The notes beneath the pieces are model-generated. The model did not search any database. It saw only the letters and a list, made by a program, of their open reading frames with translations, and was not told the origin of the DNA. The position numbers and the translations under genes were made by a program. This document shows positions 37,322 through 61,490 of a stretch of 64,000 bases of DNA, one piece after another; position 1 is the stretch's first letter, and the number at the start of each line of letters is the position of its first letter. The DNA is taken from IMG/VR virus record IMGVR_UViG_3300042478_002320, positions 1-64,000 of that record. The stretch is one strand, 5' to 3'. This stretch comes from a virus.

Positions 37322-37394
37322 AGTCAGGTAGCTCAATGGTAGAGCGGGTGCGTAATAGTAGTTGCCGTAGCAGGTTCGATTCCTGTCCTGACCA
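37322..37394 (+). tRNA. tRNA-like gene 4 (73 nt, near-canonical outside the anticodon arm)
   Basis: Acceptor AGTCAGG with CCTGACC (37387-37393; first pair A-C), D arm GCTC-AATGGTA-GAGC perfect, T arm GCAGG-TTCGATT-CCTGT good. The length is standard. The anticodon stem is weak: GGTG can pair with TGCC (two wobbles), giving a loop enlarged to about 10-12 nt around GTAATAGTAG. Reading by position only would give anticodon AAT, which I do not trust. Confidence 0.6.
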
Positions 37395-37415
37395 CTAAAC
37401 TAAAAACCAAAAATA

Positions 37416-38449: not shown

Positions 38450-38484
38450 CAGAGTCAAATTTTTTGAGTTACAAATCAACAAAC

Positions 38485-39438
38485 ATGAGTAAAATTGAAA
38501 AACTAACTCCTGAACAGGAGTCCAAATTAGAGTCTCACAGAGATAAGTGGTTGAGCAAGGTATTTAATTACGAATACTATAATAACCATGATGCTGCTAA
38601 AACAGAAGTTTCTATTAAGAAACTTTACAAATTCTGCGGGTTGTCAGAACCTGAAGTAATGCTTTTAGACAGCCCGATGGCTTGTCAAGTAAAAGTCAAT
38701 GAGTTATTAGGAAATGAAACTATGGTTTACGAACCGTTCTCATCCTACATCAACGTTGATGACATTTCTTGGCTATCCTTTTACAGCTTTTTTATGGACA
38801 ATTTTGATATCTTAGATGAGTTCAAAAAAGATTTCAACTTAATATCAGAATGTGTTGAGAACAGTTACCTTCAAATCCAAATGGATACTGTATGTTTAGT
38901 GTCTAAATATCCAAAGATAATAAACAGAAATGCCAACAAAGATTTACATTGTACAACAGGATACGCAATTGAGTTTGCAGATGGATATGGACAACACTAT
39001 GTAAACGGAAGATTTATTGAAGAGTCTGTATTCAATGAATGTATGACCTTAGAGAATGCTACGATTTTATTTCATACTCAGACTAATGAAGACATCAAAG
39101 CAGGAATTATTACAATAATCAAAGAGAATTTCGGTAACGAAGGTTTACTCAAGATGTTAGATGCTACTTTAGTTGATGAGAAGACTATTAAGCATGAAAA
39201 TGACTACGAGGAGATTGTTAGAATTTATAAGAGTAATAAATCTTATTCATTCTTACAGAATAGTAAAGGAGAGATGGATCAGCCATATGCATGGATTGAA
39301 TTCACTTGTCCGAGTACTAAATCTACTTATCTTATTGACACCTGCCCAACTTTTTCGGATGCAGTAGAATGTGCCAAATGGCATAGACCAAACAATGTAC
39401 CAAGTAGCCTTAGTTATATTTGGAGTTCAGCAAATTAA
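38485..39438 (+). CDS. DUF6745-like protein (repeat-less version)
   Basis: 317 residues from the ATG at 38485; an upstream TTG would fall in the transcript leader. LTPEQESKLESHRDKWL, a W-L-S-F-Y-S-F-F core, CTTGYAIEFADGYGQHYVNG and a C-terminal WIEFTCPSTKSTYLI fit my memory of DUF6745-type proteins. In bacterial relatives (mainly actinobacteria) I recall a long (D/A)-Q-V-W/R tetrapeptide-repeat tract just before the WL-FYDFF core. That tract is absent here, whereas the genes directly downstream encode such repeats as separate proteins. Function unknown. The gene is 14 nt upstream of its partner. Confidence 0.6.
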   Translation: MSKIEKLTPEQESKLESHRDKWLSKVFNYEYYNNHDAAKTEVSIKKLYKFCGLSEPEVMLLDSPMACQVKVNELLGNETMVYEPFSSYINVDDISWLSFYSFFMDNFDILDEFKKDFNLISECVENSYLQIQMDTVCLVSKYPKIINRNANKDLHCTTGYAIEFADGYGQHYVNGRFIEESVFNECMTLENATILFHTQTNEDIKAGIITIIKENFGNEGLLKMLDATLVDEKTIKHENDYEEIVRIYKSNKSYSFLQNSKGEMDQPYAWIEFTCPSTKSTYLIDTCPTFSDAVECAKWHRPNNVPSSLSYIWSSAN

Positions 39439-39452
39439 AATTAAAAAAAATT

Positions 39453-39842
39453 ATGAAAAGTAAGTTAAATTTCGACAAGAAGTCCTTTCACCAAGGAGAT
39501 GTTCAATTTTTCCAATTGAATAAACTACCGAAAGGCATTAAGAAGATTGAGAAGCAATTTATTGCTGCATCGGAAAGATCAGGAAGCTTTCATGCCCTAT
39601 TCGGAAATTATGACATCTACGAATTTGAGGATGGAGGATTCGTAATCGATGCTCACGAAGAATGCATCTTGAATCATTCATTACAATCAGAGCTAAGGGG
39701 TTTAGGCGTTAGTTTAGACAAAGCTATGATTACAGCTAAAAAAGACCATAGGCACACTGTTGTCCCTCCGGGTAAATACTTCGTTGGTATTCAAACAAGG
39801 TTTGATCCTTTAGAGAATGCAAAGAAGAATGTAACTGACTAA
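39453..39842 (+). CDS. Partner protein of the DUF6745-like gene
   Basis: 129 residues from ATG 39453 (MKSKLNFDKKSFHQGDVQFF). It has the G-D-V-x-x-x-x-x-x-x-L-P opening, GGFVIDAHEECILNH in the middle and DHRHTVVPPGKYFVGIQTRF near the end. This GDV...H..H..(V/L)PPG.Y.V..Q pattern is, from memory, that of the small protein encoded beside DUF6745 genes in bacteria. It is probably a small beta-barrel. The conserved pairing suggests the two act together. Confidence 0.6.
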   Translation: MKSKLNFDKKSFHQGDVQFFQLNKLPKGIKKIEKQFIAASERSGSFHALFGNYDIYEFEDGGFVIDAHEECILNHSLQSELRGLGVSLDKAMITAKKDHRHTVVPPGKYFVGIQTRFDPLENAKKNVTD

Positions 39843-39921: not shown

Positions 39922-40140
39922 ATGGAAAATATAAATGATATTCTATTATCGCATATTCATAAAGTTAGAGATAAGCTATATGTTATAATAGGCACTCCTC
40001 AATCAGATGGAAATTATTTTAATGATACCATTGAAACAGATTTAGATATAAATTCTGATAATTTTGATACTATGAGTAATCAATTATGGGGAGATGTTGG
40101 TGATAATCTTAGGAGGTCTTTTCTCAAAAATACTAAATAG
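39922..40140 (+). CDS. Array mini-protein A1 (72 aa)
   Basis: First member of the tandem mini-gene array. MENINDILLSHIHKVRDKLY opens it, and the later QLWGDVGDNLR shows the family W/V spacing, but no regular tetrapeptide repeat is left. The gene starts at AGTTATGG, the array's shared start context, and is followed 2 nt later by A2. Function unknown. Confidence 0.55.
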   Translation: MENINDILLSHIHKVRDKLYVIIGTPQSDGNYFNDTIETDLDINSDNFDTMSNQLWGDVGDNLRRSFLKNTK

Positions 40141-40142
40141 TT

Positions 40143-40343
40143 ATGAAAAATTTGCGAGAGGACATTCACGAAATCTTAGTCTACACCATTTTAAAAGAAA
40201 TGTGGGAAGAATCTAATACTAAAATAGTATTCTTTAAGATAGTAGAAGTTGAATATCATATCAAAGATAAAGTATCAGATCAATTATATCATAATATAGC
40301 TCTAAACCTAAGTGATGAAATCGATAAAAGATATAATCTTTAA
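40143..40343 (+). CDS. Array mini-protein A2 (66 aa)
   Basis: MKNLREDIHEILVYTILKEM-WEES, with VEYHIKDKVSDQLYHN showing degenerate family repeats. Starts at TAGTTATGAAAAAT, the shared array start. The final 29 nt overlap A3 in another frame. Confidence 0.55.
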   Translation: MKNLREDIHEILVYTILKEMWEESNTKIVFFKIVEVEYHIKDKVSDQLYHNIALNLSDEIDKRYNL

Positions 40344-40563
40344 AAAATTAAGGAGTGGTATTATAGAGAATATTGATAATTCATTGAATACAGATATTCT
40401 ATCAGGAAGTGTAAAAGTTATCGTAATCATTACACTAATGCATAAAATTAAGGATGAGATGTGGATACACTATAGTATAGAAATCCAAATTAATTCAGCA
40501 TTAAATCGTGTTTTATATCCTCAAGGAAATCTTTTTAATCAATATCTACGAAAACCTGTATGA
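40315..40563 (+). CDS. Array mini-protein A3 (82 aa)
   Basis: Begins MKSIKDIIFKKLRSG, like other members (MKS/MKN). The ATG at 40315 is preferred to an upstream GTG because it gives the family start. Degenerate repeats include KIKDEMWIHYSIEIQINSAL. Its TGA overlaps the A4 ATG. Confidence 0.5.
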   Translation: MKSIKDIIFKKLRSGIIENIDNSLNTDILSGSVKVIVIITLMHKIKDEMWIHYSIEIQINSALNRVLYPQGNLFNQYLRKPV

Positions 40564-40745
40564 ATAAAATAGAAGACTACAGTGATATTATATGTAAAAA
40601 ATTTACTAATCCTATGAATGAGGCTTTAGTTAGTAGAGTATCAATTAAAGCTCAATCTTTAATTAGTTTCTATACATCTAAACCTACTATGAATCAGATT
40701 TGGAGTCAACTGTTTTTTACGGTTAAGCAGAATGTAAAACTATGA
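40560..40745 (+). CDS. Array mini-protein A4 (61 aa)
   Basis: MNKIEDYSDIICKKFTNPMN, then MNQIWSQLFFTVKQNVKL: W at the family position and the canonical C-terminus QNVKL. Coupled to A3 by ATGA. Confidence 0.6.
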   Translation: MNKIEDYSDIICKKFTNPMNEALVSRVSIKAQSLISFYTSKPTMNQIWSQLFFTVKQNVKL

Positions 40746-40749
40746 AAAT

Positions 40750-40977
40750 ATGAAAAACATAAGTAGTAGAATTAGAATTAGATGTTATGAATCACTTCAT
40801 AGTCTTATAAAAAAAATTGATAATAATGTAAAATCAAAAGCAAAAGACAAAGTGACTGATGATGTAGAGGTAGAAATTAACTCTCAGATATGGGAAAAAT
40901 TGCTTGATGGATCTTTTCATGGAATAGCTAATGATTCCTATACTTTAAATCACAAAGTAAAAATTGACAATGACTAA
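40750..40977 (+). CDS. Array mini-protein A5 (75 aa)
   Basis: MKNISSRIRIRCYESLHSLI, then KSKAKDKVTDDVEVEINSQI-WEKL. Family start, alternating V/I with polar residues every four positions, single W near the end. Overlaps A6 by 8 nt. Confidence 0.55.
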   Translation: MKNISSRIRIRCYESLHSLIKKIDNNVKSKAKDKVTDDVEVEINSQIWEKLLDGSFHGIANDSYTLNHKVKIDND

Positions 40978-41164
40978 AATTATAAACGTTTCAAGTAAAC
41001 TAAGTGAATTTACAAATAAAGTAATTCGAGACAAAGGAACAATACCTATCCGAAACAATGTTGCTTTACGTACATATGATAGAACCTTAGTATATATGTG
41101 GGGTTATGTAAATTTCAATATGTCTGTAAGAAATAATATTAGGTGGTTTATAAACAAAGAATGA
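40970..41164 (+). CDS. Array mini-protein A6 (64 aa)
   Basis: MTKIINVSSKLSEFTNKVIR, then IPIRNNVALRTYDRTLVYMW. Diverged member; ATG 40970 chosen over an upstream TTG. Followed 4 nt later by A7. Confidence 0.5.
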   Translation: MTKIINVSSKLSEFTNKVIRDKGTIPIRNNVALRTYDRTLVYMWGYVNFNMSVRNNIRWFINKE

Positions 41165-41168
41165 AGTT

Positions 41169-41372
41169 ATGAAAAATATAGGCGCACAATTAGCAAGTCA
41201 CATAGATAGCAAAACTTATTCTTCACTTATTCATAATAAATTGAAGAATCATTCGAGTTCTATAATATGGGTACATATTTGGAATGCTATAAGGAGTCCT
41301 ATAGATAATGAAATATCATTAAGGATATGTGCAGAAATATTTCATAGAATACGAAAAGATATAGATTTATGA
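41169..41372 (+). CDS. Array mini-protein A7 (67 aa)
   Basis: MKNIGAQLASHIDSKTYSSL, then SSIIWVHIWNAIRSPIDNEI and C-terminus RKDIDL, a variant of QNIKL. Starts at GAAGTTATGAAAAAT. TGA overlaps the A8 ATG. Confidence 0.55.
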   Translation: MKNIGAQLASHIDSKTYSSLIHNKLKNHSSSIIWVHIWNAIRSPIDNEISLRICAEIFHRIRKDIDL

Positions 41373-41533
41373 TAAATATAGAGCATATCCTATGGGATAA
41401 AATACTTGAACATTTCTCAGATAACATACTTAATCAAGTACATTCTGAAGTTCAGACTTATATACAGAATGAGATAGGAAATCCATTGTGGACTCAAATA
41501 GATGATAGAATAGGAATAATTATGAAGTCATGA
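41369..41533 (+). CDS. Array mini-protein A8 (54 aa)
   Basis: MINIEHILWDKILEHFSDNI-LNQVHSEVQTYIQNEIGN, then PLWTQIDDRIG. Clear tetrapeptide phase (LNQV HSEV QTYI QNEI). ATGA overlap at the start and at the end, where the last codons of A8 contain the A9 ATG. Confidence 0.6.
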   Translation: MINIEHILWDKILEHFSDNILNQVHSEVQTYIQNEIGNPLWTQIDDRIGIIMKS

Positions 41534-41730
41534 AAAGCGTAAGTAACAAGATATTAGATAGATTGTCTGAGATTGAACTAACTACATTTTGGAATAAATC
41601 AGTTGAAATGACAAATTCTAAGGTATGGCATCAAGTGAGGATGAACCTAAAATCTCCTGTACAAAATGAACTAAATATTCAGCTATGGACTCAAATAGAA
41701 CGTGCAGTAAAGAGAAAAGTTAGTTTATGA
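41530..41730 (+). CDS. Array mini-protein A9 (66 aa)
   Basis: MKSVSNKILDRLSEIELTTF, KVWHQVRMNLKSPVQNELNI-QLWTQIERAV and C-terminus KRKVSL. ATGA overlaps on both sides. Confidence 0.6.
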   Translation: MKSVSNKILDRLSEIELTTFWNKSVEMTNSKVWHQVRMNLKSPVQNELNIQLWTQIERAVKRKVSL

Positions 41731-41912
41731 AAAATATTAGAGGTTATTTACGGATTCGTATATGGTATAAGAGGAACAACTTTAGTTCCATAGCACAAAT
41801 TAAAGTCTTGAATACAGAAGAGAATGTAATAGGTCGTATTCTATGGGATCCTATAGTAGATCAAGTAGAGAGCCGGGTAAGTAGTCCATTAGAAATAAAT
41901 ATGAAATTATGA
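41727..41912 (+). CDS. Array mini-protein A10 (61 aa)
   Basis: MKNIRGYLRIRIWYKRNNFS, then ILWDPIVDQVESRVSSPLEI and C-terminus NMKL. Starts in the ATGA overlap with A9. Confidence 0.6.
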   Translation: MKNIRGYLRIRIWYKRNNFSSIAQIKVLNTEENVIGRILWDPIVDQVESRVSSPLEINMKL

Positions 41913-41915
41913 GTT

Positions 41916-42140
41916 ATGAATAGTGTAGATACTACAGTAATGCGTATAGTAAAAAATCAACTATTGTATAAGATACTTGATGCAGTAAAATATCGAGTAG
42001 ATTATCAAGTAAAGAATGATGTAAAAGATGAGACAGTTAATAAAATATGGGATCAGATAGATAGTACATTATATTTTGAAGTAAAGGAACAATTAGGAAA
42101 ACAAGTATACTTACATAATTCTGTAAAACAAAATATATAG
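41916..42140 (+). CDS. Array mini-protein A11 (74 aa)
   Basis: MNSVDTTVMRIVKNQLLYKI-LDAVKYRVDYQVKNDVKDE, then TVNKIWDQIDSTLYFEVKEQ and C-terminus SVKQNI. Regular four-residue phase (YRVD YQVK NDVK DETV NKIW DQID). Confidence 0.65.
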   Translation: MNSVDTTVMRIVKNQLLYKILDAVKYRVDYQVKNDVKDETVNKIWDQIDSTLYFEVKEQLGKQVYLHNSVKQNI

Positions 42141-42142
42141 TT

Positions 42143-42328
42143 ATGAAAAATATTGAAAATGAGTTAGTAAAATTTGATCGTGATACAATGTGGTTTATAT
42201 TATATGGTAATTTACATTTTCGTATAATTAATCAAGTAACTAATCAAATTTTACATCCTATAGGAAATACTCAAAGACATATGTCTCCTGTCACAGATGT
42301 TATTAAAATGAAAATATCGTTTAAATAG
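42143..42328 (+). CDS. Array mini-protein A12 (61 aa)
   Basis: MKNIENELVKFDRDTMWFIL, then FRIINQVTNQILHPIGN. Partly degenerate repeats. Starts at TAGTTATGAAAAAT. Followed by a 35-nt gap. Confidence 0.55.
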   Translation: MKNIENELVKFDRDTMWFILYGNLHFRIINQVTNQILHPIGNTQRHMSPVTDVIKMKISFK

Positions 42329-42363
42329 CCGATACGTAACAGAACTCAAACAATCATTAAATT

Positions 42364-42573
42364 ATGAAAACTACTAACTTAATAAATATCGATACATTGA
42401 TGAGTAACCATATAATAGATAACTATAGTATGCTATTATATAAAAAATTAAAGGTATCTATGGATATGAGTTTCAAAAATCTCGATAAACTATGGAGACT
42501 CGAAGAGGAAATTGGCGCACAGCTCATAGTTCAGATACGGGATAGAGTTGTTGTAAATTTAAAAATAAAATAA
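42364..42573 (+). CDS. Array mini-protein A13 (69 aa)
   Basis: MKTTNLINIDTLMSNHIIDN, then LDKLWRLEEEIGAQLIVQIR and C-terminus VNLKIK. Starts after AAATTATGAAAA. Diverged member. Confidence 0.5.
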   Translation: MKTTNLINIDTLMSNHIIDNYSMLLYKKLKVSMDMSFKNLDKLWRLEEEIGAQLIVQIRDRVVVNLKIK

Positions 42574-42575
42574 AG

Positions 42576-42806
42576 ATGAATAATGTAAGAGCTATAATAC
42601 GAGATAAGATACCTCAAAAATTTAATTTAGAAACTATAACATCTAAATTTAGCACATCGGTAACTTCTACTGTAGAAGATTTTACAATTATTCCAATATT
42701 TGGAAAATTAACTTTTAGAGTAAGTGTTACAGTAAAGACTGTATTACTCGATACTGTGGGTGGGAAAATAGTTGGGGAGCTGCTCCCAAAATTTTTTAAA
42801 GCATAA
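42576..42806 (+). CDS. Array mini-protein A14 (76 aa)
   Basis: MNNVRAIIRDKIPQKFNLET, then FGKLTFRVSVTVKTVLLDTV. Family start; no W and little QV, so it is among the most diverged. Ends LPKFFKA. Confidence 0.45.
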   Translation: MNNVRAIIRDKIPQKFNLETITSKFSTSVTSTVEDFTIIPIFGKLTFRVSVTVKTVLLDTVGGKIVGELLPKFFKA

Positions 42807-42818
42807 AAAACTAAAACT

Positions 42819-43016
42819 ATGCATAACGTAAAAGAAACTTTTAAGTCTAAAACAAAATTCTTCTACGAAAGGTTAAGTAAAACTCTAAGACATAAAGCAT
42901 CTGTTATTACGAGATTAACTGTAAAAATAAAATTTATTGATCTCATTTCTTCACCTGTATCTAAATTAAGTTCTGATACTGCTTTAAACTTAGAAAAAAC
43001 TAATATAAAAGAATAG
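42819..43016 (+). CDS. Array mini-protein A15 (65 aa)
   Basis: MHNVKETFKSKTKFFYERLS, basic and diverged (ASVITRLTVKIKFIDLISSP). The last gene of the first array segment, 4 nt before the nuclease-like gene. Confidence 0.45.
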   Translation: MHNVKETFKSKTKFFYERLSKTLRHKASVITRLTVKIKFIDLISSPVSKLSSDTALNLEKTNIKE

Positions 43017-43020
43017 TAAT

Positions 43021-43737
43021 ATGAATTCAGATATTATTAAAATACTTCTATCTGAAGAAGAGATTAAGTATATACTATCAAAATCTATGTGTAGTATAAA
43101 TATATCTCAATATAATCCTCTGAGATATAGAAAACCTATAACTCAATTAGATAGTTTATTTAGAGGATACTTAGGAGAATATGCTTTTTTTAAATATATG
43201 CTTGAAAAGGATATTACATTCTCTAAGATTAACTATAAAAAAGATGGAGAAAAGATAGATATGGACTTGTGTTACAAAGGTCTTAATGTCGAAATAAAAA
43301 CATCTATGATTCCTGATATAGATGACTGTATGTATAAAACTATTAATACAAGAGACATAAAACTTATTAGAAGAGAGAATAGCAGTATCGAAGATTTGCA
43401 AGGAGATATTCATATACAGATATTATTTAATACAAAAAGACATGAACATGATGAATGGATTTTGAGTAAAGATTTCAATATATCAAATCATGATGTAAAC
43501 TCTTTGTATAAATTTCTAAACGCTGAAATGTATAGAGATTGCATAAATTTTGTGGGTTGGGTAGATAAGAAAACTTTAGTTCAGCATATAAACAAACTAC
43601 CTGAAGAGGATAGATGTTGGTCATTCAGGAATTCAAAACATTCTATTTTTGAAAACTCAAAAAGATATTTTTGGAATTTTAAAATAAAGGATTCCCATAA
43701 ACCCTCTCTAATCATACCCTATTTAAAAAGTTTGTAA
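43021..43737 (+). CDS. PD-(D/E)XK nuclease-like protein inside the array
   Basis: 238 residues. G-x-L-G-E-Y at E53, then D80/D82 in KIDMDLCYKG, and V-E-I-K-T-S (E91, K93) reproduce the alpha-beta core and catalytic D...ExK of PD-(D/E)XK nucleases. The later region (DIHIQILFNTKRHEHDEWI) is a family-like strand and helix. The closest analogues are restriction-like or uncharacterised phage endonucleases. It sits between the two array segments, so it may be a passenger gene, or part of the system. Confidence 0.6.
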   Translation: MNSDIIKILLSEEEIKYILSKSMCSINISQYNPLRYRKPITQLDSLFRGYLGEYAFFKYMLEKDITFSKINYKKDGEKIDMDLCYKGLNVEIKTSMIPDIDDCMYKTINTRDIKLIRRENSSIEDLQGDIHIQILFNTKRHEHDEWILSKDFNISNHDVNSLYKFLNAEMYRDCINFVGWVDKKTLVQHINKLPEEDRCWSFRNSKHSIFENSKRYFWNFKIKDSHKPSLIIPYLKSL

Positions 43738-43757
43738 ACATTAACATAATTTTAACA
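43738..43757 (+). promoter_or_regulatory. Paired upstream box ACATTAACATAATTTTAACA
   Basis: Lies 8 nt upstream of the -33 TTG of the promoter below, in the same arrangement as at 38390. Confidence 0.5.
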
Positions 43758-43765
43758 AACACCTA

Positions 43766-43796
43766 TTGATTTGCAAGAGAAGTATTATTATCTTTG
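43766..43796 (+). promoter_or_regulatory. Bacteroidota-type promoter (TTG-N20-TATCTTTG)
   Basis: TTG 43766-43768, 20-nt spacer, TATCTTTG 43789-43796. Transcription would begin around 43803, so a TTG start at 43771 cannot be used and the next in-frame ATG (43834) is chosen for the gene. Confidence 0.65.
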
Positions 43797-43833
43797 CGAT
43801 GTTAATTATTCTAAACCACATAATCACATTGCC

Positions 43834-44301
43834 ATGATTAATATCCTATCTTCAGTTTACAATCTTACTAAGACCAATAATGGTATGTTCAAATCTGAGA
43901 AACAAGCTAATTTCTTGATTTCTCAATTTAAAGCATATGATGACTTTGTAGGCTTCTCTCCAAACGGAAAACCTATATTCGTAGAATACGATGATAAGGG
44001 TATTATAAAGATGTACAAAGATTTAGCATCAAACAAAACTGATATTGTATTTGAAAGAGTCGTTGAAGGATCTCTCAACTCTGTTGAGTTGAAGACTCTT
44101 AAATGGTATAAAAGTAAGGTTAAGAAAATTCAAAAGAATTTAGATGAATCTATTGCATTCGCAGAAAAAAAAGGATTATCTAACTATTCTGAATTTGAAT
44201 TGGAGGTATATCACAGAAGTAGAGAAAGTGATAGAACTCGTATAGCCGAGCTTATGGAGTTAATCGATGGTTTAGAAAGTAAAACAAACAAATTATTATG
44301 A
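43834..44301 (+). CDS. Hypothetical protein with charged coiled-coil C-terminus
   Basis: 155 residues from ATG 43834 (MINILSSVYNLTKTNNG). FLISQFKAYDDFVGFSPNGK, then a helical charged end (KWYKSKVKKIQKNLDESIAF). No family recognised. It has its own promoter and its stop overlaps the next start by ATGA. It may be a member of a phage nucleic-acid-associated family, but nothing specific supports it. Confidence 0.55.
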   Translation: MINILSSVYNLTKTNNGMFKSEKQANFLISQFKAYDDFVGFSPNGKPIFVEYDDKGIIKMYKDLASNKTDIVFERVVEGSLNSVELKTLKWYKSKVKKIQKNLDESIAFAEKKGLSNYSEFELEVYHRSRESDRTRIAELMELIDGLESKTNKLL

Positions 44302-44459
44302 TAAAGTATAAGATTGTAGATTGGATGAGTAATCATCTGTTCATTGATAAAGTATTTGACTCCTTTGAGGAGGGGTGGGATTTCCTGTATGAGCAGTTTC
44401 CTGATGAGGATAATTTTGATGACTATTATGTGGTACCTATTGAAAATGACGTATTATGA
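44298..44459 (+). CDS. Small acidic hypothetical protein, 53 aa
   Basis: MIKYKIVDWMSNHLFIDKVF, then DEDNFDDYYVVPIENDVL. Acidic and aromatic. It is coupled by ATGA overlaps to the gene before and to array gene B1 after it, so it belongs to the same polycistronic unit. Confidence 0.55.
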   Translation: MIKYKIVDWMSNHLFIDKVFDSFEEGWDFLYEQFPDEDNFDDYYVVPIENDVL

Positions 44460-44701
44460 AGGAAGTAGTAAATAATATAGTAAGTAGTCAAGTGGGTGAA
44501 GAAGTGTGGGATCAATTATATTACCAAGTAATCTTTCAGGTAGATGTTAAAGTATGGAATACAGTGAAGAGTCAAGTAGATAATCAAATACTTAATTTAG
44601 TAAATCCTCAAATAGGGAGGCAAGTACGCATTCGGTTACAGGATAAACTAATGGAGCAATTAGCGAATCAAGTAGAAAATAATTTAGAACAAAATATGTA
44701 G
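44456..44701 (+). CDS. Array mini-protein B1 (81 aa)
   Basis: MKEVVNNIVSSQVGEEVWDQ-LYYQVIFQVDVKVWNTVKS-QVDNQILN. Strong four-residue phase with V every fourth residue and W after V. C-terminus NLEQNM. First member of the second array segment. Confidence 0.7.
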   Translation: MKEVVNNIVSSQVGEEVWDQLYYQVIFQVDVKVWNTVKSQVDNQILNLVNPQIGRQVRIRLQDKLMEQLANQVENNLEQNM

Positions 44702-44704
44702 TCT

Positions 44705-44911
44705 ATGAATAACATAGGAAGTGACACAGGAAAGATAGTATGCGAACAAGTAGATACCGCAGTAAGATTTAAAATTCGTAATGGCATAGTTAATAGCCCT
44801 GTTTTCTATAAACTATGTGGTCTACTAAGTAGTAAACTGAGTATCGAATTATGGAATCAAACAACAAGTAGAGTAGTGAGTCAATTAAGGATTTCAGTAA
44901 GAAACTTATAA
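44705..44911 (+). CDS. Array mini-protein B2 (68 aa)
   Basis: MNNIGSDTGKIVCEQVDTAV, then IELWNQTTSRVVSQLRISVR-NL. Partly degenerate. Starts 4 nt after the B1 stop. Confidence 0.6.
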   Translation: MNNIGSDTGKIVCEQVDTAVRFKIRNGIVNSPVFYKLCGLLSSKLSIELWNQTTSRVVSQLRISVRNL

Positions 44912-44915
44912 ATTT

Positions 44916-45104
44916 ATGAAGAATATAGATAAGATGGTAGGAGATGTATTATACGATCAAGTTAGAGATGAGCTGAGAGTAAACCAAAATAGTAAAGTAG
45001 ATGTTAGGTTAAGTTTTCATCTGAGTGATAAACTATGGAATGCTACAAGAGGTCAGGTAATTTTGCAATTAAACAATATGCTTAAACGGAACTTAAAATT
45101 ATGA
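44916..45104 (+). CDS. Array mini-protein B3 (62 aa)
   Basis: MKNIDKMVGDVLYDQVRDEL, then SFHLSDKLWNATRGQVILQL and C-terminus RNLKL. ATGA overlap with B4. Confidence 0.6.
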   Translation: MKNIDKMVGDVLYDQVRDELRVNQNSKVDVRLSFHLSDKLWNATRGQVILQLNNMLKRNLKL

Positions 45105-45295
45105 GTAATGTAAATATGCATCAAGTAAAAGATAAAATATGGATTGAAATACATTATACATTACGTAATCAACTACGGAGAGATGTAATGAATGTAGTTA
45201 AAAGTCATACTATATGGATTTATATATTGCATCAAGTACAGGATATAGTATGGGATCAAGTAAGAGATCGTATAGGACAAAACTTTAAATTATAA
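45101..45295 (+). CDS. Array mini-protein B4 (64 aa)
   Basis: MSNVNMHQVKDKIWIEIHYT, then YILHQVQDIVWDQVRDRIGQ-NFKL. QV/W tetrapeptide phase, canonical end. Confidence 0.6.
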   Translation: MSNVNMHQVKDKIWIEIHYTLRNQLRRDVMNVVKSHTIWIYILHQVQDIVWDQVRDRIGQNFKL

Positions 45296-45303
45296 AGAAT
45301 ATT

Positions 45304-45501
45304 ATGGTTGACCTGAGTAAGAAAATAAATGATGCAGTAAATCATATACCTAATAAATCTTATGATATATTATTTTTTAAAATGAAAGAAGAAGTATTAG
45401 TAAATACATGGAATATACTAAGAGTTCAAACAAGAGATCAATTACGAATTAAAATGAGACTTCGGATAACTTTTGAAGTATTTAAAAACATAAAAGTATG
45501 A
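45304..45501 (+). CDS. Array mini-protein B5 (65 aa)
   Basis: MVDLSKKINDAVNHIPNKSY, then LVNTWNILRVQTRDQLRIKM and C-terminus KNIKV. ATGA overlap into B6. Confidence 0.6.
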   Translation: MVDLSKKINDAVNHIPNKSYDILFFKMKEEVLVNTWNILRVQTRDQLRIKMRLRITFEVFKNIKV

Positions 45502-45668
45502 GAAATATAACTGAAAGAATAAATTACAGACTAAAATATTTGGGAGATGGATTTCTTATGGATTTATGGGAATTAATATCCAATAGATCATCAGATGACG
45601 TAAGGTTTAAGGTAAGAACTAAAGTATGTAATGTATACATAGATCAAGTAAAAAAGAATATGAAATGA
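45498..45668 (+). CDS. Array mini-protein B6 (56 aa)
   Basis: MRNITERINYRLKYLGDGFL, then DDVRFKVRTKVCNVYIDQVK-KNMK. Coupled by ATGA at both ends. Confidence 0.6.
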   Translation: MRNITERINYRLKYLGDGFLMDLWELISNRSSDDVRFKVRTKVCNVYIDQVKKNMK

Positions 45669-45802
45669 AAGGAGTTACTATTCATATATGGAGTAGAGTA
45701 TTAGATTTACGTAATAATTTACGAAAACCTATAGAAGATGAATTAAATGATCAGCTAAGTGCTCAGGTAGGAGTTCAACTTAGAAATTCCATAGTAGAAT
45801 GA
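45665..45802 (+). CDS. Array mini-protein B7 (45 aa)
   Basis: MKGVTIHIWSRVLDLRNNLR-KPIEDELNDQLSAQVGVQLR. The shortest member, with repeats DELN DQLS AQVG VQLR. ATGA overlaps at both ends. Confidence 0.6.
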   Translation: MKGVTIHIWSRVLDLRNNLRKPIEDELNDQLSAQVGVQLRNSIVE

Positions 45803-45987
45803 AGAATTTGAATATAAAAATTGATGTTAAAGTTTGGGATCGAGTATATAGTGAAATAGAAAATGAAACAAACTATAAAGTATCAGGTCAAGTATGCAAA
45901 CAAGTAGGTGACCAAATAACTTTTCCAATACTAAATCAAGTACGGTTTCAAGTACGGAATCAAGTATCACAAAACGTAGAATTATGA
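45799..45987 (+). CDS. Array mini-protein B8 (62 aa)
   Basis: MKNLNIKIDVKVWDRVYSEI, then KVSGQVCKQVGDQITFPILN-QVRFQVRNQV and end QNVEL. Very regular repeats. ATGA overlap into B9. Confidence 0.65.
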   Translation: MKNLNIKIDVKVWDRVYSEIENETNYKVSGQVCKQVGDQITFPILNQVRFQVRNQVSQNVEL

Positions 45988-46172
45988 AAAGAGTACAAAG
46001 TATTATGAATACTGAAACTATAAGTAAATTTTGGATTATTATAGAGCTTTCAGTATGTGAACAAGCAAGTAACGAAGTAAAGGTCAGAACGAGTGGTGAA
46101 TTAATTGATCCTATAAATAATGAATTAGGCACTCAATTGTGGAGTCAAATAAAACAAAACGTAAAGTTATGA
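45984..46172 (+). CDS. Array mini-protein B9 (62 aa)
   Basis: MKRVQSIMNTETISKFWIII, then NNELGTQLWSQIKQNVKL. Canonical C-terminus; ATGA at both ends. Confidence 0.65.
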   Translation: MKRVQSIMNTETISKFWIIIELSVCEQASNEVKVRTSGELIDPINNELGTQLWSQIKQNVKL

Positions 46173-46360
46173 AGAGTGTAAGAAATGTAGTAAGTAGTAG
46201 AATAAGAATCAAAGTAAAAGGTAAGATATGGAGTACTATAGGCATTCAAGCAAGGGACTTAGTAGAAGCTAAAATAGGAAGTAGTGTAAGAGGACAAATA
46301 TTTGATTCATTGTATATTGATGTGCAAGAAAACATAGACTATGAATATACTAAAAAATAG
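46169..46360 (+). CDS. Array mini-protein B10 (63 aa)
   Basis: MKSVRNVVSSRIRIKVKGKI-WSTIGIQARDLVEAKIG. The ATG in the ATGA overlap is preferred to an upstream in-frame ATG at 46139, since it gives the family start. Overlaps B11 by 20 nt and ends without the canonical KL. Confidence 0.6.
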   Translation: MKSVRNVVSSRIRIKVKGKIWSTIGIQARDLVEAKIGSSVRGQIFDSLYIDVQENIDYEYTKK

Positions 46361-46529
46361 AGTAAATACTCAAGTATGTATTCAGGTAGGGGATAACTGT
46401 AAGACACAGGCATCTCAAAAATTATGGGATCAAGTAAGTAGTCGAGTATGGGGTTGTGTAAAAAGAGAAGTGTGGGGTTGTGTAAGTAGAGAAGTACGAA
46501 TGCAGGTAAAACAAAACATAAAGTTATGA
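46341..46529 (+). CDS. Array mini-protein B11 (62 aa)
   Basis: MNILKNRVNTQVCIQVGDNC, then KLWDQVSSRVWGCVKREVWG-CVSREVRMQVKQNIKL. Two almost identical VWGCV units show recent duplication. ATGA into B12. Confidence 0.65.
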   Translation: MNILKNRVNTQVCIQVGDNCKTQASQKLWDQVSSRVWGCVKREVWGCVSREVRMQVKQNIKL

Positions 46530-46750
46530 AGAGCGTAAGTGAAGAAGTAAGCACTAAAGTGAATGATCAGATAACTGATGTAGTAAGCATTAAAGTAAGA
46601 AATAATCTATGGGGTCAAGAGGTGATTCATGTAGGTTTTGAAATACGCAATGAAGTATGGCATCAAGTTGGAAATAAAATACACAGTCAAGTACGCATTC
46701 AGGTATGTAATAGAGTAATGGTTCAATTACAACAAAACATAAAGTTATGA
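46526..46750 (+). CDS. Array mini-protein B12 (74 aa)
   Basis: MKSVSEEVSTKVNDQITDVV, then EVWHQVGNKIHSQVRIQVCN-RVMVQLQQNIKL. Regular phase, canonical end, ATGA both sides. Confidence 0.7.
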   Translation: MKSVSEEVSTKVNDQITDVVSIKVRNNLWGQEVIHVGFEIRNEVWHQVGNKIHSQVRIQVCNRVMVQLQQNIKL

Positions 46751-46971
46751 ATAATATAGAAAAAAAAGTATGGGATCAAGTAAGTAATCAAGTAAGGAAT
46801 CAGGTAAGTAATCAAGTAAGTGAGCAAACAACTATTTCAATATGGAATGAAATAAATAATCAAGTAAGTGGTCAAATATGGAATCAAGTAAATAATCAAG
46901 TAAGTGAAAAAGTGATAGATCAACTATGGAATGAATTTTTAAATAGATTTAAACAAAACATAAAGTTATGA
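46747..46971 (+). CDS. Array mini-protein B13 (74 aa), near-perfect repeats
   Basis: MNNIEKKVWDQVSNQVRNQV-SNQVSEQTTISIW, then NNQVSGQIWNQVNNQVSEKV and end QNIKL. At the DNA level it is a 12-bp repeat of the type AATCAAGTAAGT. One of the clearest members of the family. Confidence 0.75.
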   Translation: MNNIEKKVWDQVSNQVRNQVSNQVSEQTTISIWNEINNQVSGQIWNQVNNQVSEKVIDQLWNEFLNRFKQNIKL

Positions 46972-47162
46972 ATAATGTTAGTTATAAGGTTGGACAGAAA
47001 CAAGGACATGAAGTACTCAGTGGAGTAGGTGGAAAAATTTGGGAAGCTGATAAAGTATCAAAATCAGTAGTAGTTAAACTATATGTTCAAATAAATCAAC
47101 AATTAGTAACTGAGATGGGAGAGAAATTTGTGAGGCAACTATTACGAAACCTAAAGTTATGA
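46968..47162 (+). CDS. Array mini-protein B14 (64 aa)
   Basis: MNNVSYKVGQKQGHEVLSGV, then VVKLYVQINQQLVTEMGEKF and end RNLKL. Degenerate repeats; ATGA both sides. Confidence 0.6.
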   Translation: MNNVSYKVGQKQGHEVLSGVGGKIWEADKVSKSVVVKLYVQINQQLVTEMGEKFVRQLLRNLKL

Positions 47163-47326
47163 AGAGTGTAAAAGGTGGGGTAGAAGATAAAATACAAAAA
47201 CAATTACTATACCTAATGCAAGACAGAATAGGAAATCAAGCATGGAGTCAAACGAGGCAGCATCTAAGTATTCAGGTGACGATGCAATTGAGATGGAATC
47301 GAGTAGAACAAAACATAAAGTTATGA
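47159..47326 (+). CDS. Array mini-protein B15 (55 aa)
   Basis: MKSVKGGVEDKIQKQLLYLM, then NQAWSQTRQHLSIQVTMQLR and end VEQNIKL. Starts in ATGAAGAGTGTA, ends CATAAAGTTATGA. Confidence 0.65.
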   Translation: MKSVKGGVEDKIQKQLLYLMQDRIGNQAWSQTRQHLSIQVTMQLRWNRVEQNIKL

Positions 47327-47604
47327 AGAATATACAGAAACAAGTATCATTTCCATGTGATCAAGTATGGGTTAATTTAAGAGTTCGCATTCGAAGTACG
47401 TCAGGGAATGGAATAGAAAGAAAAGTGAGTGATGTAGTAAGTCATCAAGTGGTTAATTTAGTGACTAATAGAATGGTAGATCATGTACGGTATCATGTAC
47501 GGGATCATGTACGGTATCATGTACGGTATCATGTACGGGATTATGTACGGGATCATGTACGGGATTATGTACGGGATCATGTAGCACAAAATACTAATTT
47601 ATGA
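47323..47604 (+). CDS. Array mini-protein B16 (93 aa) with HVR tetrapeptides
   Basis: MKNIQKQVSFPCDQVWVNLR, then from residue about 52 a run of YHVR/DHVR/DYVR units (nine in a row, 47478-47583), encoded by 12-bp units of GATCATGTACGG type. The unit sequence changed from NQVW to DHVR while the four-residue phase was kept. An upstream in-frame ATG (47242) is inside B15, so the coupled start is used. Confidence 0.7.
   Translation: MKNIQKQVSFPCDQVWVNLRVRIRSTSGNGIERKVSDVVSHQVVNLVTNRMVDHVRYHVRDHVRYHVRYHVRDYVRDHVRDYVRDHVAQNTNL
47478..47583 (+). repeat. Perfect 12-bp tandem repeat (GATCATGTACGG units)
   Basis: About nine consecutive units differing only at the first and fourth bases of the codon pair (gat/tat, cat/tat). 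They contain the palindromes CATG and GTAC. Such near-identity implies recent slippage or unequal recombination. Confidence 0.8.
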
Positions 47605-47792
47605 AGAGTGTGAGGAGTCATATATGTAATCAAGTGGCTGATAAACTATGTAGTCAAACAAGTACTCAAGTAAGGTTTCATGTATCTAAAAAATTATGGG
47701 ATCAAACAAGACAGTATTTAAGTACTCAAGTGAGAATGCAAGTACGGGTTTACATACGTATGGAAATACCTATGCAGATAAAAAAAATATAA
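47601..47792 (+). CDS. Array mini-protein B17 (63 aa)
   Basis: MKSVRSHICNQVADKLCSQT-STQVRFHVSKKLWDQTRQY, then STQVRMQVRVYIRMEIPMQI. ATGA overlap with B16; ends KKI, followed 4 nt later by B18. Confidence 0.65.
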   Translation: MKSVRSHICNQVADKLCSQTSTQVRFHVSKKLWDQTRQYLSTQVRMQVRVYIRMEIPMQIKKI

Positions 47793-47796
47793 AGTT

Positions 47797-47973
47797 ATGA
47801 AGAATGTTAGGTACGAAGTATGGAGTAGATTATGGGGTAAAGTGGTAAGTCGCTTATGGAGTGAAAAAAATGGTATGGTGTATAATCAAGTATGGAATCA
47901 AGTTGGAGAGAGTATACATGAACAATTATCAAATCAAATTTCGGAACGAGTATCACAAAACATAAAGTTATGA
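47797..47973 (+). CDS. Array mini-protein B18 (58 aa)
   Basis: MKNVRYEVWSRLWGKVVSRL-WSEKN, then YNQVWNQVGESIHEQLSNQI and end QNIKL. Strong W-V pattern; ATGA into B19. Confidence 0.65.
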   Translation: MKNVRYEVWSRLWGKVVSRLWSEKNGMVYNQVWNQVGESIHEQLSNQISERVSQNIKL

Positions 47974-48188
47974 AGGATATGAGAAGTAAAGTAAGGGAGC
48001 AGATAGGAATTAGAATAGTGGATATAGTAGAAGTTAAAGTGTGGAATCAAGTATGGAGTACTATAGGCAATCAAGTATGGAACCAAGTAGTGAGGCAAGT
48101 ACTGACTCAAGCAAGAAATCAATTGAAACCTCAAGTAATTAACGATGTAAAACAAAATGTAAAATTATCAAAATTAAATTCACTTTAA
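47970..48188 (+). CDS. Array mini-protein B19 (72 aa)
   Basis: MKDMRSKVREQIGIRIVDIV, then EVKVWNQVWSTIGNQVWNQV-VRQVLTQARNQL. The usual KL end is followed by SKLNSL because the stop is lost. A segment coding for QVWNQVVRQV is identical in DNA to one in C3. Last member before the HD gene. Confidence 0.65.
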   Translation: MKDMRSKVREQIGIRIVDIVEVKVWNQVWSTIGNQVWNQVVRQVLTQARNQLKPQVINDVKQNVKLSKLNSL

Positions 48189-48354
48189 TGTATTTTGTAA
48201 AACCATAGTTATGAAAGACCTGTACCCTTGAGAAACTCGTATTAGATATCATAAGTTAGGTATTGAGATAAGCAGGTCATCTCCGATATAAAAGGGTATT
48301 AGAATAAGGAGATATTTTATAATAAAGTAATTAAAAAAATTTTGGGAGCAGAAC
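48189..48354 (+). other. Intergenic gap with possible structured RNA
   Basis: There is no open frame. GACCTG (from 48216) can pair with CAGGTC (from 48273), enclosing CCCTTGAGAAACTCG. The short phrase CCCTTGAGAAA also occurs between tRNA-like genes 2 and 3 (about 37063). No known RNA family recognised. Confidence 0.3.
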
Positions 48355-48385
48355 TTGACATTTCCAACATAACTCAGTATATTTG
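48355..48385 (+). promoter_or_regulatory. Bacteroidota-type promoter (TTGACA-N..-TATATTTG)
   Basis: TTG 48355-48357 and TATATTTG 48378-48385 with 20-nt spacing, 17 nt before ATG 48403. The best promoter match in the window. Confidence 0.7.
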
Positions 48386-48402
48386 CAAAAACAAAAAAAC
48401 AT

Positions 48403-48900
48403 ATGTCAAACATACCCACCTCCCCACAATCCTTAATCAGGTCATTACCTGATTCTCTAAAAGAATTACTGTTTAAGCAATGGAATGCTAAACAGAATCC
48501 AACATGGCATCCTGAAGGAAATACCTTAAAGCATATCATTGTAGTTTTGAAGAGAGCATACCACAAGTATACAGATGATCCTAATATGATTATGGCAGCA
48601 TTGTTCCATGACTTAGGTAAGATGGATACTTATGCTATAAATCCTAAAACAGGACAACCTACTGCATATGGACATGAGCATAAGTCAGCTGATTATGTTA
48701 TTCAGTATCAAGATTGGATTTTAGCTTATGATGGAACTGACATAGAAACTATACACTTTATAGTTAAGAATCATATGTTGGTGAAATATCCTAATGCAAT
48801 AATTGAATCTATGAGACTATCTAAGCGTATACCTATAGAGAATCATAAATCATTTGATAAACTAATATTCTTTTCTACGATTGATAAGGGTGGTATATAA
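48403..48900 (+). CDS. HD-domain phosphohydrolase (CCA-enzyme HD type)
   Basis: 165 residues. H36 in WHPEGNTLKHIIVVL, H69-D70 in AALFHDLGKMDTYAIN, GHEHKSADYV and VKNHMLVKYP lie in the order and spacing of the HD domain that accompanies bacterial CCA-adding nucleotidyltransferases. The stand-alone form may act on RNA 3' ends or on nucleotides. It has its own strong promoter and interrupts the mini-gene array, so it may be an independent passenger. Confidence 0.75.
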   Translation: MSNIPTSPQSLIRSLPDSLKELLFKQWNAKQNPTWHPEGNTLKHIIVVLKRAYHKYTDDPNMIMAALFHDLGKMDTYAINPKTGQPTAYGHEHKSADYVIQYQDWILAYDGTDIETIHFIVKNHMLVKYPNAIIESMRLSKRIPIENHKSFDKLIFFSTIDKGGI

Positions 48901-48925
48901 GTGTTAAAAACTAAAACATAAAGTT

Positions 48926-49078
48926 ATGAAGAATGTAGGCAAACAAGTATGGAAGCAATTAAGTAATCAAGTAAGGAATCAGGTAAGTAATCAAGTATGG
49001 AGTCAAGTGAGGAATCAAGTATGGGATCGAGTATGGGAGCAAGTAGAGAATCAAGTAAAACAAAATATAAAGTTATGA
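48926..49078 (+). CDS. Array mini-protein C1 (50 aa), near-perfect repeats
   Basis: MKNVGKQVWKQLSNQVRNQV-SNQVWSQVRNQVWDRVWEQV, then ENQVKQNIKL. Almost pure tetrapeptide repeat. The DNA run AAGTAATCAAGTAAGGAATC is also in B13. Starts after ACATAAAGTTATGAAGAATG. Confidence 0.75.
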   Translation: MKNVGKQVWKQLSNQVRNQVSNQVWSQVRNQVWDRVWEQVENQVKQNIKL

Positions 49079-49275
49079 AGGATGTAAGTGAAAAAATAAG
49101 TGATAAAATAGGTGGTAAAATAAGTAGTAAAGTATGGAAAGATGTATGGAACCAAGTATCGAAGGAAGTACAGAGTCAAGTAAAAGATAAAGTACGTATT
49201 CTATTAGGGGAGCAAGTAGAGAATCAAGTATGGGATCAAATAAGTACTATAGTAAGTAATAATGTAATGTTATGA
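49075..49275 (+). CDS. Array mini-protein C2 (66 aa)
   Basis: MKDVSEKISDKIGGKISSKV-WKDVWNQVSKEVQSQVKDKV, then EQVENQVWDQISTIV. The coupled ATG (49075) is preferred to an ATG within C1. Opens with DKIG GKIS SKVW units. Confidence 0.7.
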   Translation: MKDVSEKISDKIGGKISSKVWKDVWNQVSKEVQSQVKDKVRILLGEQVENQVWDQISTIVSNNVML

Positions 49276-49514
49276 AAAATGTAAAAGGACAAGTATGGAA
49301 TCAATTAACTGATCAAGTATATAATCAAGTACAGAATCAAGTATGGAACCAAGTAGTGAGGCAAGTATGGTATCAAGTAGAAATTCAAGTATGGGATCAA
49401 GTAAGTAATCAAGTAGATGATCAAGTAAGTGATCAAGTAGAGATTCAAGTAGATGATCAAGTATGGGCACAAATAAGTGATGAAGTACGTAACCAACTAA
49501 AACAAACATATTAA
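49272..49514 (+). CDS. Array mini-protein C3 (80 aa), most regular member
   Basis: MKNVKGQVWNQLTDQVYNQV-QNQVWNQVVRQVWYQVEIQV-WDQVSNQVDDQVSDQVEIQV. About 15 tetrapeptides in a row, each x-Q-V-x. The minus strand also stays open through this region, only because of repeat composition. Confidence 0.75.
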   Translation: MKNVKGQVWNQLTDQVYNQVQNQVWNQVVRQVWYQVEIQVWDQVSNQVDDQVSDQVEIQVDDQVWAQISDEVRNQLKQTY

Positions 49515-49515
49515 T

Positions 49516-49788
49516 ATGAAATCACTAAATAACCAAGTACGTGACCAACTATTAAATCAAATACGTGGTCAATTAAATAAACATGTATTTGATAACGTAA
49601 TTGTTCATCTACATCTTCAAATAAGTAATAAATTATGGGCACAAATAAGTGATGAGGTAAATGTTCAATTAAAACGTAATATTACTGACCAATTACGTGT
49701 TAATTTACATGAACAAATATGGAATCGAGTAAGTGGTCAAGTGATTAATCAAGTATATAATCAAGTAAAACAAAACATAAAGTTATGA
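49516..49788 (+). CDS. Array mini-protein C4 (90 aa)
   Basis: MKSLNNQVRDQLLNQIRGQL, then NKLWAQISDEVNVQLKRNIT and NRVSGQVINQVYNQVKQNIK-L. Canonical end and ATGA into C5. Uses CAACTA/AATTAC codons more variably than C3. Confidence 0.7.
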   Translation: MKSLNNQVRDQLLNQIRGQLNKHVFDNVIVHLHLQISNKLWAQISDEVNVQLKRNITDQLRVNLHEQIWNRVSGQVINQVYNQVKQNIKL

Positions 49789-50006
49789 AAAACGAAAACA
49801 CCGATATAAGGTCTATTGTACGCAATGACATCATAGATTGTTTATGGGAAACTTTAGGAGAACGAATGGATGCAGATGATTCAGACAAAGCTTCCTTAAC
49901 TATAGTTAACAATGAACGTATGCGTATGAGGTTTGATCAATTGAAAAATTCTATTAGTTTTCAAATTAACCTTAAAATATCTGAAAGCAAATCAAAAATT
50001 CAGTAA
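49785..50006 (+). CDS. Array-end protein C5 (73 aa), diverged
   Basis: MKNENTDIRSIVRNDIIDCL-WETLGERMDADDSDKASLT. It keeps the MKN start and the ATGA coupling but has lost the repeats. It could be a capping member of the family or an unrelated gene that uses the same start signal. Confidence 0.5.
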   Translation: MKNENTDIRSIVRNDIIDCLWETLGERMDADDSDKASLTIVNNERMRMRFDQLKNSISFQINLKISESKSKIQ

Positions 50007-50024: not shown

Positions 50025-50288
50025 ATGAAAAATCAAAATCAGGTAGGATCCATTTACCTAAACGGTACAGTAGACGTAGCTGTAGACATTGACAACAGTT
50101 ATATCAAAATTCATATTGTAAACAATAAAACTAAAGAACTTATTGAAGGCTGCCACTTTCACTATAGTTCAGATAAGCTGAATAGGGATCTAAAAAACGA
50201 TATAAGGAAATACCTTATCGACACAACTTCGAGTAATAGCTATGCTGATACTATTATACATAATATAGTAAATCAGCTTAAAAAATAA
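50025..50288 (+). CDS. Small hypothetical protein at the end of the array
   Basis: 87 residues. MKNQNQVGSIYLNGTVDVAV, a beta-rich domain, then SYADTIIHNIVNQLKK. The start context ACATAAAGTTATGAAAAAT is copied from the array. No family recognised. The operon ends at the terminator that follows. Confidence 0.55.
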   Translation: MKNQNQVGSIYLNGTVDVAVDIDNSYIKIHIVNNKTKELIEGCHFHYSSDKLNRDLKNDIRKYLIDTTSSNSYADTIIHNIVNQLKK

Positions 50289-50310
50289 TTATATCATCGG
50301 TTTTCTTAGG

Positions 50311-50339
50311 GTGGGGGAGTCAGCTTCCCCACTTTTTTT
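50311..50339 (+). terminator. Intrinsic terminator of the plus-strand array
   Basis: GTGGGG...CCCCAC stem followed by seven T, 22 nt after the last stop codon. Confidence 0.85.
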
Positions 50340-60866: not shown

Positions 60867-61490
60867 TTATTTTAATGTTGAACGTAATACCTCATAACAC
60901 AACTCTTCAGGGATCATACTTCTATCATAAGAATCCTTTCTCCCTTGAGTACCTGTCTTAGAACCTCTTGGGGCAGGTGTATGATGACAATCCTTATTCC
61001 CATTATGACATATAGGCCTTGGAATCCAATTATTTGAATTTGTCCATATATCTGTAGGTTTAGCTCTATCATCTCCATATCTGCAATACCATACAGTATG
61101 TCTTTTAAACTCCTGCATCCAAGGCATTTTGCGTAACATACCTCTTGGATTTTCAATAAAGAATATCATATTTGGATTTATATCTAACCAACTTTTTATT
61201 AAAGATATAAAATGCTGATTAGTTATATCACATTGATTGGCATATTCACTTTTAGGATAAACACCATTTCTATGTTTCGATATCGCTGCTATTGTATATG
61301 TTGTACAATCAGGAGATGCCCAAACTACGTCAGGAATAAAAGGAATATCTTCAATTGCTAAATTAGAAACATCCTTACATAAGTCAATGTTCTCATATTT
61401 TTCCCAATCTACAGAAAACACATTCATTCCTAACTTGTTTCCAACTTTTCCTATTGATCTGCTTCCCGCAAATAATTCAAGCAAGTTCAT
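60867..61490 (-). CDS. Short C5-methyltransferase-like DNA methylase
   Basis: 207 residues. MNLLELFAGSRSIGKVGNKL is the SAM-binding motif I, VVWASPDCTTYTIAAISKHR stands in the place of the catalytic P-C motif (with S-P-D-C), and FFIENPRGMLRKMPW resembles motif VI (E-N-P/V). It lacks a target-recognition domain and is much shorter than its neighbours. The C-terminal HNGNKDCHHTPAPRGSK is probably a metal or DNA contact. A DNA-modifying role is likely. Confidence 0.7.
   Translation of the reverse strand: MNLLELFAGSRSIGKVGNKLGMNVFSVDWEKYENIDLCKDVSNLAIEDIPFIPDVVWASPDCTTYTIAAISKHRNGVYPKSEYANQCDITNQHFISLIKSWLDINPNMIFFIENPRGMLRKMPWMQEFKRHTVWYCRYGDDRAKPTDIWTNSNNWIPRPICHNGNKDCHHTPAPRGSKTGTQGRKDSYDRSMIPEELCYEVLRSTLK

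Follow-up and report, generated by a model that had tools for sequence, protein, structure and literature searches.

What does a phage gain from dozens of tiny, related repeat genes standing side by side? The question is raised by positions 39,922-50,006 of IMG/VR record IMGVR_UViG_3300042478_002320, a virus record of 78,883 bp of which we analyzed the first 64,000 nucleotides (the window); judged by its tail-fibre and baseplate genes, the source virus is a tailed phage. In this region 39 mini-genes on the plus strand encode small proteins made of four-residue units containing the pair QV. The array is best read, from the sequences compared here, as a repeat arm that became separated from a protein widespread in phages, the DUF6745 protein, and was multiplied, because loci in which DUF6745 is free of the repeat carry separate mini-genes while loci having the repeat in cis carry none. 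A preliminary description of the array missed the clue leading to this reading, namely that a DUF6745 gene and a small partner gene, here termed QGD, lie upstream, and that DUF6745 proteins normally contain this repeat themselves.

The 39 open reading frames (ORFs) measure 45-93 codons, some starts having been trimmed to an internal ATG, and cover 78% of the stretch. In 100 dinucleotide shuffles of it, plus-strand ATG frames of 45 or more codons averaged 2.4 and never exceeded 6, whereas the real stretch has 43 of them, and four on its minus strand. The number of tandem mini-genes previously described was thus confirmed, except that they are not consecutive: three unrelated frames (43,021-44,459), a gap (48,189-48,402) and an HD-domain gene (48,403-48,900) intervene, leaving blocks A, B and C (Table 1). 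A 4-bp overlap of stop and start is the usual sign of translational coupling; the reported ATGA overlaps were found, exact to the base, at 20 of the 38 junctions. The reported common leader, CATAAAGTTATGA, which itself encodes the last residues of a member along with the first residues of its successor, is present in the window in 28 copies (up to 2 mismatches) versus 6.9 expected. Members indeed range from near-perfect, mainly at the right end, to degenerate, at the left beside DUF6745 and QGD. Two further traits, a middle of four-residue units and a common C-terminus, had been assigned to all members and hold for a part of them: a hydrophobic residue (V, I, L or M) recurs at every fourth position in 28 of the 39 (p<0.05), the remaining 11 having no significant period, and the QN-I/V-KL C-terminus is exact in about 10 and loose in about 16.

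To establish where else the repeat occurs, viral contigs were scanned with QV-repeat members only, so as not to start from DUF6745. Among the best 80 loci, ranked by similarity to the query and some of them cut by the contig end, DUF6745 is encoded in 74, with the repeat and DUF6745 in the same ORF in 69; a stricter count gave 67 cis proteins with a median of 32 units, and in the DNA fetched for them a separate repeat mini-gene accompanies none (0/67). Five loci have a repeat-free DUF6745 (L146, L190, L195, L203 and L220, where L146 and L220 are contigs of L010 and L020), each with 2 to 17 separate QV ORFs, counts that include some overlapping frames. The cis form is also found in named records, since in the DUF6745 proteins of phage MW202476 and prophage prophiGD102-1 the repeat (xSSL and xDQL) is placed between the N-terminal region and the DUF6745 domain. 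The stretch between two anchors in DUF6745 is 27-33 residues long in the array phages and 165 and 212 residues in these two cis forms; in actinobacterial chromosomal proteins it measures 95-161 residues of other sequence, and no QV-type repeat was present in those examined. The cis-repeat proteins (PF20530) resemble the window in having the same kind of tetrapeptide unit and a QGD partner gene, and differ from it in that the window core lacks the repeat, which is coded instead by about 39 separate genes. Two loci concern the frame of the unit: L018 (7323-8600) has a cis repeat of xSSL type, and repeats resembling xSSx also result when QV-type units are read in other frames; one phage may thus read the 12-bp repeat in another frame than the next. 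The DUF6745 region of a Nocardia plasmid (L025, 573-1932) has tetrapeptide repeats open in different frames, which suggests a frame change inside the repeat.

The core ORF (38464-39438) matched PF20530 with 19.0 bits (E 9.5e-4), which is below the curated 27-bit cut-off of this Pfam family; its relatives L010 (113 bits) and L011 (31 bits) clear the cut-off and align with it over the full length. Moreover, its structural model (predicted local distance difference test, pLDDT, 82.6) matched the DUF6745 model of Microcystis phage LMM01 in BFVD with E 7e-15, and, as in other DUF6745 members, a QGD gene is its pair. By these comparisons the ORF is a divergent DUF6745 relative only. Foldseek gave no PDB match for the model at E<=0.001, and profiles of DUF6745 and QGD, built from alignments A1 and A2, gave no match in PDB either. 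A search with these profiles found both genes together in 12/12 DUF6745 loci of phages (from 11 distinct records, of which several were profile seeds), in 79/80 actinobacterial loci, none of which were seeds, and in 4/8 plasmid loci. DUF6745 was present in 7 of 247 sampled actinobacterial genomes; of two scans of cellular genomes, one yielded nothing and the other Actinobacteria only, the wider cellular range being under-sampled. The family name is absent from the open-licence literature searched, and the available part of the Ma-LMM01 transcriptome paper holds nothing specific on gp174/gp175. On plasmids, DUF6745 and QGD are located beside STM4011-4015-type genes in Deinococcus (L030, 4060-10333) and beside STM4013-4015-type genes in Streptomyces (L028, 1-4594), a neighbourhood for which a functional link in cells is possible. 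In the Deinococcus DUF6745 protein (L030, 4368-5369) leucine-rich repeats take the place of the N-terminal region, so that the core here bears a different type of repeat.

The array members themselves had no convincing match in Pfam, PHROG or NCBIfam. Weak matches to Trigger_C, DUF4816 and phrog_5189 look like low-complexity effects, an adiponectin sequence match of one member was treated as compositional, and PADLOC returned weak matches only. The DUF6745 domain was not matched in any of nine members scanned, their likeness being to the repeat insert only. A structure prediction of single members had been proposed earlier, and AlphaFold2 modelled the member at 49,516-49,788 as one continuous helix (residues 4-89, pLDDT 93.6) without tertiary contacts.

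The way in which units vary is clearest in L019, which is the same contig as L010; the units of the window are more diverged. The 207 units of L019 follow the form CAA GTC NNG NNT, in which the CAA codon and the last base of NNT are invariant, GTC is nearly so, codon ends are nearly fixed, and variation affects the first two bases of two adjacent variable codons. Codon bias was ruled out as the cause of this silent uniformity by the other genes of the contig, where GTC makes up 25 of 155 valines (16%) and AGG 4 of 132 arginines. Minimum spanning trees of the units showed silent changes below the neutral expectation in 8/8 loci, with P=2e-4 for L019, about 0.03 for two others and >0.05 for the other five. 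L019 members also share blocks of four residue pairs (6, versus 0.13 in shuffles). A diversity-generating retroelement was rejected as the source of variation given that both adenines of CAA are invariant in the 207 L019 units, no search having been made for a reverse transcriptase or a template repeat. From phage to phage the silent codons vary (CAA GTA, CAA GTC, CAG GTC, CAG GTT, CAG CTC) and the protein pattern is constant.

Related phages had been suggested as a place to seek the same array, and four relatives whose DUF6745 is 73-79% identical to that of the window own arrays, located upstream of DUF6745 in L142-L144 and downstream in L145. Orthologous members could be traced in L142-L144, in an order unlike that of the window. 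The window member at 49,075-49,275 has a synonymous distance (dS) of 0.07 to its L144 orthologue even though the silent sites of DUF6745 are saturated when the window is compared with L143, to which L144 is closely related; this suggests that single members are exchanged between phages. The ratio of nonsynonymous to synonymous rates (omega), estimated by simple counting, is about 0.04-0.15 for DUF6745 and QGD and about 0.5 for the members; relative to a mutation-matched simulation, member omega is 0.6-0.8. A dN/dS near 1 between members had been put forward as the sign of absent selection, and the values obtained between orthologues do not cleanly reach it: a nonsynonymous fraction as low as observed arose in 9/300 and 0/300 neutral runs in two comparisons and in 51/300 for the window pairs. 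The register also decays more slowly than in the neutral simulation, as hydrophobicity at the V site is 0.73 versus 0.54 in simulated neutral decay (36 window members, at most 60% of Q retained), and tryptophan is held at one unit position (103/105), diverged members included.

Two phage and bacterial systems provide precedents for tetrapeptide tuning. In gp54 of mycobacteriophage Tweety the repeat is likewise a tetrapeptide encoded by 12 bp; two residues of the unit are invariant, two vary, and most silent sites are fixed, a pattern that its authors judged consistent with selection for variation (PMC2884959), and escape mutants gain or lose repeats, becoming tuned to the Phrann or MichelleMyBell prophage defences (PMC9262239, PMC8549241). 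We recomputed the gp54 pattern; as in the array (best seen in L019), two neighbouring codons of its 12-bp units vary at their first and second positions, although the unit is AA-X-Z rather than QV-X-Z and the repeat is in cis in a single gene. The DUF6745 and QGD profiles had no significant match in gp54 and its neighbours, and homologous N and C regions were not found. Rpn is a PD-(D/E)XK toxin, and RpnS, of which each locus has one, is made from a start inside that gene and counteracts RpnL only when repeat numbers match; the four-residue repeats lie in an oligomerising helix (PMC10327210). Rpn/RpnS and the array share hypervariable four-residue repeats with one hydrophobic residue in a helix (a predicted one in the array) and an arm also made as a separate small protein; unlike Rpn loci with their one RpnS, the array has dozens of separate genes. 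No Pfam match to the PD-(D/E)XK (Rpn) domain was obtained in the DUF6745 ORF. A family is already catalogued for the core, and tetrapeptide tuning has been described before; the trans, multi-gene form was not found in the open-licence literature searched.

We consider it an even call that the mini-genes are interchangeable specificity arms working with the DUF6745/QGD pair in phage conflict. The repeat arm would have left the core DUF6745 protein in this lineage and been copied many times over to give a polycistronic array with coupled translation. Caps that resemble one another at both ends could allow all mini-proteins to pair with one common partner, the DUF6745/QGD core being the simplest candidate, and the number of units together with the variable residue pair after each QV would set what is recognised. 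Gain and loss of 12-bp units may generate diversity, as may the shuffling of unit blocks from one member to another and, through the near-identical gene junctions, the swapping of entire members by different phages. From these data and by analogy with Tweety gp54 and Rpn/RpnS we infer docking, targets and a conflict role; the array would be a panel of arms that differ in length and residue pairs and whose most likely use would be to provide counter-defence or exclusion specificities. The combinatorial or antigen-like set imagined in the preliminary description is partly supported, as it fits the similar end caps within each phage, the hypervariable residue pairs, the shuffled blocks and the members traded between phages. 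More tentatively, and with rather less confidence, the locus might be a phage-borne recognition repertoire, in which a single DUF6745/QGD core serves dozens of mini-proteins that can stand in for one another. These would share their docking caps, carry a hypervariable residue pair in each unit, owe their diversity to unit shuffling, pass from phage to phage as whole gene cassettes and match varying defences or rivals. DUF6745 with tetrapeptide repeats is common in phages and usually paired with QGD, and the natural split between core and free arms makes its function directly testable. If the arms are specificity parts, a phage would hold a repertoire at the gene level, joining the counter-defence tuning of Tweety gp54 with the Rpn/RpnS pairing by repeat number.

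Several points weigh against the specificity-arm proposal. With member omega near 0.7, decay under weak constraint accounts for some of the data, chiefly those of block A. The 74/80 figure is not a population frequency, since the set was ranked by similarity to the query; the exclusivity of cis and trans forms rests on few independent array lineages, and five QV-bearing records, possibly fragments, show no DUF6745. QGD was not seen near DUF6745 in 4/8 plasmid loci, and no conserved third partner gene was found, the recurrent neighbours being array members, their antisense shadow and two proteins in 5-6 of 68 loci. To our knowledge DUF6745 and QGD are proteins without known function. The silent-site deficit could result from a DNA-level constraint on the core motif or from one recent expansion, and the conflict role is argued by analogy, neither Tweety gp54 nor Rpn being known to be homologous to DUF6745.

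Other explanations account for some of the same observations. The mini-proteins might act like RpnS as trans inhibitors, pairing repeat-to-repeat with the cis-repeat DUF6745 of competing phages, so that the array would be an immunity or antitoxin panel rather than the arms of its own core. Such targets are common in phages, and a separately made Rpn repeat domain does block the full protein, with pairing set by repeat number (PMC10327210). Arrays of diverse immunity paralogues exist elsewhere, too: the EsaG-type tandem paralogues are reported to be strings of non-identical small paralogues that recombine (PMC9484751), although they are bacterial, have a known toxin partner, and are likened here by description and not by sequence. 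We nevertheless regard this explanation as fairly unlikely, because in array phages purifying selection is strong on both DUF6745 and QGD, a constraint that immunity alone would not call for and that favours docking on the phage's own pair; moreover, toxicity is not known for DUF6745. A 12-bp minisatellite within a short ORF, propagated through slippage and duplication of the gene and leaving mostly decaying passengers without function, would explain the member omega values, the degenerate members, the recent homogeneous expansions and the unit shuffling. It is the less probable for the facts that 39/39 frames are open and mostly coupled, that the register stays above neutral and site-specific residues such as tryptophan persist in diverged members, that silent changes are fewer than neutral, and that the repeat is strongly tied to DUF6745/QGD; we consider it unlikely.

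Structural rods or filaments formed by mutual coiling (assembly parts, inclusions or scaffolds) would agree with the continuous AlphaFold2 helix and with the oligomerising helix of the RpnS repeats (PMC10327210). They seem highly unlikely, however: a proline occurs in the interior of 36 of 78 members and, wherever the register can be told, usually falls on the Q site, the model lacks tertiary contacts, and in cis the repeat belongs to a two-gene module without conserved structural neighbours. A strict period of four does not line up straight along an alpha helix, which, like the prolines, calls for caution over the helix model, although one mutation is enough to turn CAA into CCA. Least credible to us is a function of the DNA or RNA, such as a regularly spaced motif serving as a binding or recombination site with incidental open frames; the silent sites are uniform within each phage as this would predict, but they differ between phages while the protein pattern stays, and 69 loci hold the repeat in frame within DUF6745.

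Table 1. Coordinates of the array and its neighbours in the window.
Feature	Position	Strand	Remarks
Putative DUF6745-family core protein without repeat insert	38464..39438	+	Likely start ATG 38485; PF20530 match below cut-off
QGD, small partner protein (QGDV...H...PGxYxVxxQ) without Pfam family	39453..39842	+	Alignment and pairing with DUF6745
Array block A, 15 mini-genes, mostly degenerate	39922..43016	+	
Non-array ORF among members, 238 amino acids	43021..43737	+	PD-(D/E)XK nuclease likeness by eye only
Non-array ORF	43771..44301	+	
Non-array ORF	44298..44459	+	4-bp overlap with first gene of block B
Array block B, 19 mini-genes, many ATGA-coupled	44456..48188	+	
HD-domain protein within the array	48403..48900	+	PF01966 E 1e-3; phrog_6931 E 1.9e-8
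Array block C, 5 mini-genes, the most regular repeats among them	48926..50006	+	
Last cistron, not a repeat protein	50025..50288	+	Same leader (CAAAACATAAAGTTATGAA)
Strong terminator-like hairpin, 12 pairs followed by T-rich tail	50308..50335	+	Closes the block

The nuclease likeness of the first of the intervening ORFs comes from the stretch GYLGEYAFF...DMDLCYKGLNVEIKTS, and no family match was obtained for this protein. An HD-domain protein in or near the array is also encoded in the relatives L142 (10648-11169) and L143 (12858-13361), and none is among the listed ORFs of L144. Elsewhere in the window, ARAGORN called a tRNA without assigned amino acid at 37322-37395, and at 61487-63657 two neighbouring minus-strand ORFs both match phrog_116 (DNA methyltransferase) from model position 208, being duplicated or split genes.

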